64,000 nucleotides of DNA from Anaerolineae bacterium (GTDB lineage: Bacteria > Chloroflexota > Anaerolineae > Aggregatilineales > UBA3940), in assembly GCA_016926255.1 (NCBI GenBank), contig JAFGOY010000010.1, positions 1-64,000 of the forward strand, read 5' to 3'. Below the pieces are notes generated by a model that saw only the letters and a list, made by a program, of their open reading frames with translations, did no database searches and was not told where the DNA came from. Both the position numbers and the translations under genes were made by a program. Below are positions 361 to 63,619 of the stretch, piece by piece (positions within the stretch are counted from its first letter, which is position 1; each line of letters begins with the position of its first letter).

Positions 361-432
361 TGAGGGCGGGAGGTATCGAACCTCCGGCCAAGAGCTTAAA
401 AGGCTCCTGCTCTACCACTGAGCTACGCCCCC
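361..432 (-). tRNA. tRNA-Lys (anticodon UUU)
   Basis: Read on the minus strand, the sequence folds into a full cloverleaf. The acceptor arm is GGGGGCG with CGCCCTC (one G-U pair). The D arm is GCTC/GAGC, the anticodon stem GGAGC/GCTCT, and the T arm GGAGG/CCTCC with TTCGATA in the loop. The anticodon loop CTTTTAA gives UUU, lysine. The discriminator base is A at 361, and no CCA is encoded. A promoter lies just upstream (453-482). Confidence 0.95.
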
Positions 433-491: not shown

Positions 492-526
492 CCTCTCCGA
501 AATTTGCTCTGCGAACTTCGGAGAGG
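492..526. repeat. Intergenic hairpin repeat, copy A
   Basis: A 35-base element with a perfect stem; with the flanking A and T the arms ACCTCTCCGAA (491-501) and TTCGGAGAGGT (517-527) pair over 11 bp. The interior TTTGC/GCGAA can extend the stem. It is related to copies at 5521-5556, 47374-47409 and 63584-63619. It lies between tRNA-Lys and the membrane protein gene at 566. Confidence 0.75.
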
Positions 527-5520: not shown

Positions 5521-5556
5521 CCTATCCGCAAATTCGCTTTGTGAACTTCGGATAGG
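5521..5556. repeat. Intergenic hairpin repeat, copy B
   Basis: A 36-base element with arms CCTATCCG (5521-5528) and CGGATAGG (5549-5556). Relative to copy A the stem pair C-G is replaced by A-T at the fourth position, so pairing is kept. It lies between a terminator and the SD of the epimerase gene. Confidence 0.8.
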
Positions 5557-5580
5557 ACAGTCGATGTGGAGGAACCGGGT

Positions 5581-6546
5581 ATGCAGGTTCTGGTCTTAGG
5601 TGCGACGGGATTCATCGGGGGGCAGATTGCCCATGCAGCGGTTCAGGAAGGGCTGGAGGTTCACGGATTCCGGCGCAGGCCGGGGTCGGTGGGGGCGATT
5701 GGCGATCTGGCGGTTACGTGGCATGAGGGCGATCTCTCTGATGGGCGCGGGCTTGACGAAGCCCTGCAGAGCTGCGATGTGCTGTTCCATGCCGCCGCAT
5801 ACGCTCCGGGGAGCGGATACAGCATCCGTGAGGCGAAACAAAAGGGTGTTTCGCAGCTGCGAATCGTGCTGGAGGCTGCCCGCCGAGCAAACGTTAAACG
5901 GGTGGTTTATACCAGTTCGCTGACGACCATCGGGACACCACCGCCGGGAAGCAATCGGCTGGCCGATGAACGCGATGGGTATCTGCCCGGATCGACAAGC
6001 AACGCCTACTACGAAGCGAAATGGGTGATGGAGTTCGAGGCGCTGCGGGCGTATCAGGCCGGGCTGCCGGTGATTATACTGGCCCCGACGGCAGTCTTCG
6101 GCCCTGGCGATTTGAAACCGAGCACAAGTCAAATCCTGCTGATGGTCGCGAAGAATCAGCTTCCGGTCGGGGTGGACATGGAAACCAATATCGTCGACGG
6201 GCGGGATGTGGCGCTGGCACATGTGCGGGCGGCGACGGCAGGCGAGCCTGGGGAGCGCTACATCATCGGCGGGCATAATCTGAACGTGGCCGACGCGCTG
6301 CGAGAAGCGGCACGGCTGGTGGGTGTCAGGGAGCCGCGCGGGGCGCTATCACTGAAAGCTGTGACACGACTGCTCCGGTTCGCCGAGTTTTTCCGGCTGC
6401 CGGTTCCGGCCACGATGCGAGGAATGCCGTACTGGATGGCGCTGAATTCTGAAAAAGGGTTCAGGACGTTCGGCTACACGCCGCGCCCGTTCGAAGAGAC
6501 GGTGGTTGATACCGTCGGGTGGTTCAGGGAGAACGGGTATTTGTGA
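5581..6546 (+). CDS. NAD(P)-dependent sugar epimerase/dehydratase-family protein (extended SDR)
   Basis: About 321 residues from ATG 5581, chosen because GGAGGA lies eight bases upstream; an in-frame GTG at 5566 sits before that SD. The N-terminal Rossmann motif is GATGFIGG (7-14). VVYTSSLTTIG and Y-Y-E-A-K give the Ser and YxxxK catalytic elements. IILAPTAVFGPGD and the C-terminal part follow dihydroflavonol-reductase/HpnA-like epimerases. The substrate cannot be told from sequence. It is a single gene between two terminator-like regions. Confidence 0.88.
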   Translation: MQVLVLGATGFIGGQIAHAAVQEGLEVHGFRRRPGSVGAIGDLAVTWHEGDLSDGRGLDEALQSCDVLFHAAAYAPGSGYSIREAKQKGVSQLRIVLEAARRANVKRVVYTSSLTTIGTPPPGSNRLADERDGYLPGSTSNAYYEAKWVMEFEALRAYQAGLPVIILAPTAVFGPGDLKPSTSQILLMVAKNQLPVGVDMETNIVDGRDVALAHVRAATAGEPGERYIIGGHNLNVADALREAARLVGVREPRGALSLKAVTRLLRFAEFFRLPVPATMRGMPYWMALNSEKGFRTFGYTPRPFEETVVDTVGWFRENGYL

Positions 6547-47373: not shown

Positions 47374-47409
47374 GCTATCCGTAAATTCACTTCGTTCATT
47401 TCGGATGGC
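47374..47409. repeat. Intergenic hairpin repeat, copy C
   Basis: A 36-base element with arms GCTATCCG and CGGATGGC, one G-U pair. The interior AAATTCACTTCG matches copies B and D. It lies 50 bases before ltaE. Confidence 0.75.
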
Positions 47410-63583: not shown

Positions 63584-63619
63584 CTTGTCCGCAAATTCAC
63601 CTTGCGAATGCCTGATAGG
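63584..63619. repeat. Intergenic hairpin repeat, copy D (degenerate)
   Basis: A 36-base element sharing TCCGCAAATTCAC, TTGCGAA and GATAGG with copies A-C. The outer stem is weakened, and an inner GCA/TGC plus TTC/GAA pairing remains. It lies 70 bases before murI. Confidence 0.65.

Follow-up and report, generated by a model that had tools for sequence, protein, structure and literature searches.

The palindromic repeat at positions 5521-5556 belongs to a dispersed family that is, quite probably, of a mobile kind: MITE-like, of the IS5 type, and able to use a stop codon as its target site. A small non-autonomous palindromic element was one of the readings offered in the first-pass annotation, and it is supported by the dispersed copies, by ends held in common with IS5-family elements of related genomes, and by duplications of the trinucleotide TNA. 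The 65-70 dispersed copies with their patchy distribution across the order, and inverted termini around a variable middle, support this reading.

Copies in the window and size of the family

Four copies had been reported in the window, the whole 64,000-nucleotide stretch of DNA analysed here, and all four are indeed present. They are listed below together with the tRNA gene next to the first copy.

Copy A: 492..526, + strand, 35-base palindrome with a fully paired inner stem (47.3 bits, fold z -6.3)
tRNA-Lys(TTT): 361..432, - strand, neighbour of copy A and outside the element (ARAGORN, Rfam RF00005)
Copy B: 5521..5556, + strand, 36-base palindrome (52.5 bits, fold z -6.0)
Copy C: 47374..47409, + strand, copy of the commonest (TTCATTT) type (58.5 bits, fold z -4.7)
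Copy D: 63584..63619, + strand, decayed copy (40.7 bits, fold z -1.2)

Each copy had been described as a hairpin. The folds of copies A, B and C are much better than those of shuffled sequences, which upholds the description for these three, but copy D is degenerate and its stem is broken. The placement of copy A beside tRNA-Lys was correct, the distance being 60 bp, and a degraded right half may come after its palindrome (judged by eye only). Copies B, C and D each lie upstream of an ORF, again as described. The ORF at 5566-6546, which resembles an NAD-dependent epimerase by eye, begins 9 nt after copy B; copy C is preceded by a stop codon at 67 nt and followed by the next start at 50 nt, and copy D lies 124 nt past a stop codon. 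None of the four window copies abuts the stop codon of a long ORF (0/4). The association with stop codons, absent from the first-pass annotation, was found elsewhere in the genome. An Rfam search of the window at the gathering score returned the tRNA as its sole match and assigned the hairpin to no family.

Further copies, on which the earlier claim of a repeat family hung, clearly exist, and in numbers far beyond chance. With a gapped pattern fitting copies B and D, 100 shuffles of the window gave 0 matches, and an 8-kb DNA query containing copy C retrieved some 25 additional genomic places, several of which are identical at 32/32 bases. The proposed covariance-model search of the genome, conducted with a model built from 25 copies, found 65 distinct places at E<=0.01, with the count rising to 70 at E<=1; 150 of 1,670 first-look candidates were taken to scoring, and the resulting 65-70 copies may be a lower bound. 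The motif CTATCCGTAAATTC occurs 15 times in this genome vs 0 times for the reversed pattern. A strict palindrome pattern recovered just 2 copies.

Covariance hits were obtained in 2 of the 40 nearest genomes, one from the same family and one from another family of the order. Of 154 genomes of the order, 18 contain CTATCCGTAAATTC, and several of these have 5-19 copies; single occurrences in other genomes of the order are probably chance matches. A scan of named genomes yielded 33 stretches, mostly from Anaerolineae. The 18 pattern matches in viral contigs all lack a paired end and were taken as chance. A text search of the literature found no description of this repeat family.

Anatomy of the full element and its transposase-bearing relatives

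Full copies reach about 37 bp past the palindrome, a feature that had not been annotated before. The full form has a core of ~73 bases, consisting of the 36-base hairpin, a variable spacer of ~23 bases and a shorter inverted right end, with 3 more bases on either side. Many copies continue in this way, reading TCTATCCGTAAATTCACTTCGTTCATTTCGGATAGA, the variable spacer and GATTTnTGGATAGA-TTG-TAA. At the two termini stand imperfect inverted repeats, TNAcnA(T/C)CTATCCGtAAATTC on the left and TTACAATCTATCCanAAATC on the right (reversed), or (T/C)CTATCC..AAAT in short form. Full copies number 18 by a strict filter and ~28 by eye. Identity among the 12 best full copies was 91% in the hairpin, a value inflated by use of the hairpin itself as the search handle, 78% in the right end and 53% in the spacer, which is the pattern expected of constrained ends and a free middle. 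Solo 36-base copies mostly have no recognisable right end. The right-end pattern produced 11 hits; those at C74:21955 and C14:94 have no adjoining hairpin, and the rest lie at known copies.

The same ends bracket elements of ~60-210 bp with other interiors in other Anaerolineae, and in three genomes (L133, L183 and L184) they flank IS5-family transposase genes (~940 bp). At L133, from an Anaerolineales MAG (JAFGRA010000204.1), a core of 932 bp lies between them and encodes a 283-aa transposase matching DUF4096, DDE_Tnp_1 and NCBIfam IS5_3 (214 bits). Homologues of this transposase in G045 (66% identical) and G061 have the same ends. The L133 transposase frame stops within the right inverted repeat (L133:3760-3776), its TAG stop being derived from ACGGATAG.

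In other genomes, 20 two-ended elements were counted after spurious pairings had been removed by eye, and 12 of them have identical 3-bp TNA flanks. Among the 18 full copies of this genome, 5 have matching TNA on both sides, and the overall agreement is above that of shuffles (p about 0.02); the target duplication appears decayed here. A 5-bp duplication (CTAAG) was suspected first. A comparison of the two ends of one element showed different bases following TNA; that base is therefore part of the element, and 3 bp are duplicated. The junction is still YTNA in copies away from stop codons, a group that includes the four copies of the window.

In the proposed mechanism, a small non-autonomous transposon (MITE) of the IS5-family type would have the palindrome as its conserved left end. 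A DDE transposase of the IS5_3 group would move it in trans, recognising (T/C)CTATCCGtAAAT ends and duplicating a 3-bp TNA target, and an IS5-type transposase presumably moved the copies of this genome. The target types of the IS5 family are taken as general background. Correia, RUP and Nezha-type bacterial MITEs are, like this element, small mobile inverted repeats moved in trans; they differ in having other ends and TA target sites of other transposase families. In common with IS5-family MITEs (NCBIfam NF033580, transpos_IS5_3), the element is small, has no coding capacity and has the ends of a transposase-bearing element, a probable short TNA target duplication and many dispersed extragenic copies. 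Unlike them, it has a 36-base hairpin as one end, often standing alone, it strongly favours stop codons and a single orientation, and its genome yielded no cognate transposase. Prokaryotic MITEs are treated in the literature (PMC10969869).

The cognate transposase was sought by protein search in the 96%-complete assembly, and none was found. Multi-copy elements are often lost from such assemblies, and old MITEs need not have a cognate transposase in the same genome. The sole IS5_3-type transposase remnant seen in this genome, the decayed L237 (G000:C58:542-1238), was rejected as the cognate because its ends differ (GTGTTATGAAC-like). No clean empty site was found for any copy of this genome. 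Genome G050 is without the element that G023 has behind the same gene end, and a further ~100 bp also differ between them; the flanks in G008 are too diverged for an empty-site comparison.

Other repeats were observed in these relatives. In G001 and G008, another abundant dispersed repeat (GTCATTCCCGCGAAAGCGGGAATCCA...) occupies dozens of places each and occurs beside the L055 element. G023 (CAKZOB01 contigs; L061, L126, L131) contains a further repeat family with AGCAAATCGCTGAGAACCTTTGC... and CCTCACCCC... blocks in dozens of copies. These AGCAAATCGCTGAGAACCTTTGC/CCTCACCCC repeats often adjoin TIR elements, and elements there have a GCGCGCAGCAAGCAGCGCC interior.

Placement and orientation behind stop codons

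In 33 of the 70 copies the palindrome starts 0-5 nt past the stop codon of a same-strand ORF (ORF cut-off, at least 90 aa). Eighteen copies have a gap of exactly 3 nt (TAA 9, TAG 7, TGA 2), which means that the stop codon occupies the TNA slot, and 2 further copies abut a stop through the other end, also at 3 nt. The 3-nt placement after TAA was also observed in at least 4 other genomes, one of which is the subject of the G050 comparison. Both TAA and TGA are TNA sites. Duplication of the stop codon upon insertion would leave an intact stop before the element and the gene unharmed, and would account for the exact 3-nt spacing. TNA-targeting insertion into stop codons would thereby be a simple rule by which mobile DNA fills a compact genome with its genes unbroken.

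GTAG termini of REPs have been reported to supply TAG stops (PMC3733652). A supply of stop codons by the present element was ruled out, since the host genes have native C-termini: L20 (rplT), ClpX, ArgC, RpoD and a response regulator are among those that extend to the ends of their family models. The gene in the relative G050 also ends at the same place without the element.

Besides the missing transposase, the solo copies and the want of a clean empty site, two observations on placement stand against the MITE reading. The first is the TAG stops, which are not TNA. Copies at TAG stops score lower than copies at TAA/TGA stops (p 0.008), as expected if old TAA stops drifted, and some TAA stops may later have become TAG in this way. 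TNA-type stops make up about 10% of the non-coding TNA sites near the copy loci as estimated with a crude gene caller, and the enrichment at stops is mild for the strict TNA subset (12 copies, p 0.04) and strong for the whole set. The second is the orientation of the stop-adjacent copies, 33:2 (p 4e-8), which is not expected from TNA targeting alone. Between tandem genes, 29 copies point the same way as the genes against 5 that do not; the few cases at stops in other genomes include both orientations. The stop excess and the strand bias exceed what target choice alone explains, and there is room for a REP-like function. The remainder of both may be due to selection, whether through the loss of harmful insertions or because the hairpin is mildly beneficial there; the orientation bias offers a direct way to test for function.

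These placements resemble those of E. coli REPs, as do the size, palindromy, extragenic site and gene co-orientation of the copies. REP/RAYT systems (GTAG, CGTC families) are likewise extragenic palindromes of 20-40 bases, found downstream of genes and near stops, and E. coli REPs within 15 nt of a stop codon were reported to stall ribosomes (PMC12306157). A REP-like element would be a palindrome that owes its spread to a single-strand Y1 (RAYT) transposase and its retention behind the stop to its hairpin, through an effect on translation or by shielding the mRNA 3' end. We regard such an origin as improbable. Y1_Tnp (PF01797) is absent from this genome although present in 5 control genomes, and no constant GTAG/CGTC tetranucleotide tag is found at the foot of the hairpin, where the junction is YTNAn with 2-3 A-rich bases. 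Moreover, full copies have two inverted ends with a probable TNA duplication, and the G-U excess expected of a selected RNA hairpin is not significant (see below). Movement of an IS5-type MITE would have placed hairpins, by an unrelated route, where E. coli REPs reportedly slow translation. It is conceivable, though in our judgement unlikely, that the element is targeted to or retained at stops in one orientation through the action of its hairpin, as a repeatedly domesticated 3'-UTR element of housekeeping genes. It would then parallel REPs independently, in a genome that has no RAYT.

Stem pairing

Compensatory changes in the stem had been claimed from the copies of the window, and the wider family agrees in part. 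All 7 double changes in stem pairs 2-8 keep pairing, every one as Watson-Crick, vs 2.3 expected by independence, which bears out the earlier claim; on the other side, weakening single changes are more numerous (46 single changes in the same pairs). The outermost pair across the 70 copies is CG in 41, TA in 18, GC in 2, AT in 2 and others in 7. Selection on an RNA helix should favour G-U, but the imperfect stem pairs include 25 G-U and 19 A-C, which is not a significant excess, and the stop-adjacent copies include 12 of each. Selection for RNA pairing is therefore not supported, although the G-U vs A-C test is weak and function stays compatible with its outcome.

The suggestion of an RNA-processing site fares no better: the strand bias fits it, but G-U is not significantly above A-C. 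For the suggested protein-binding site, one presumed binder of the ends is the transposase. More generally, a selected cis-acting RNA or protein-binding element with no mobile phase, such as a processing site or a 3'-UTR stabiliser, is very improbable. The orientation counts at stops and between tandem genes are what it would lead one to expect, and the hairpin is better kept than the rest of the element. An intrinsic terminator lies downstream of 10 of 32 stop-adjacent copies, and a copy before such a terminator should be transcribed. However, the stem is no better kept in stop-adjacent copies than elsewhere, with G-U and A-C equal there, and transposase-bearing elements have the same inverted ends. 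The family is almost absent from relatives, which speaks against a conserved regulon; no copies were detected at the same genes in the relatives searched.

We read the palindrome as a DNA feature, its symmetry kept in the source elements or by template switching, a process that can correct quasi-palindromes. That the stem compensation arose from this mutational process and not from selection is possible though somewhat doubtful; the proposal bears only on the maintenance of pairing and can stand alongside the MITE reading. It is consistent with double changes that are all Watson-Crick with no significant G-U excess, and with an outermost pair that switches as a unit between CG and TA. The double changes are equally explicable as inheritance from a few source copies, and the counts are small. 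Some variant palindromes, whose inner stem changes are compensated (CCTATACG/CGTATAGG and CTATGC/GCATAG), make up minor subfamilies; they were observed at G000:C55:57699, C39:23273, C35:104563 and C2:22500.
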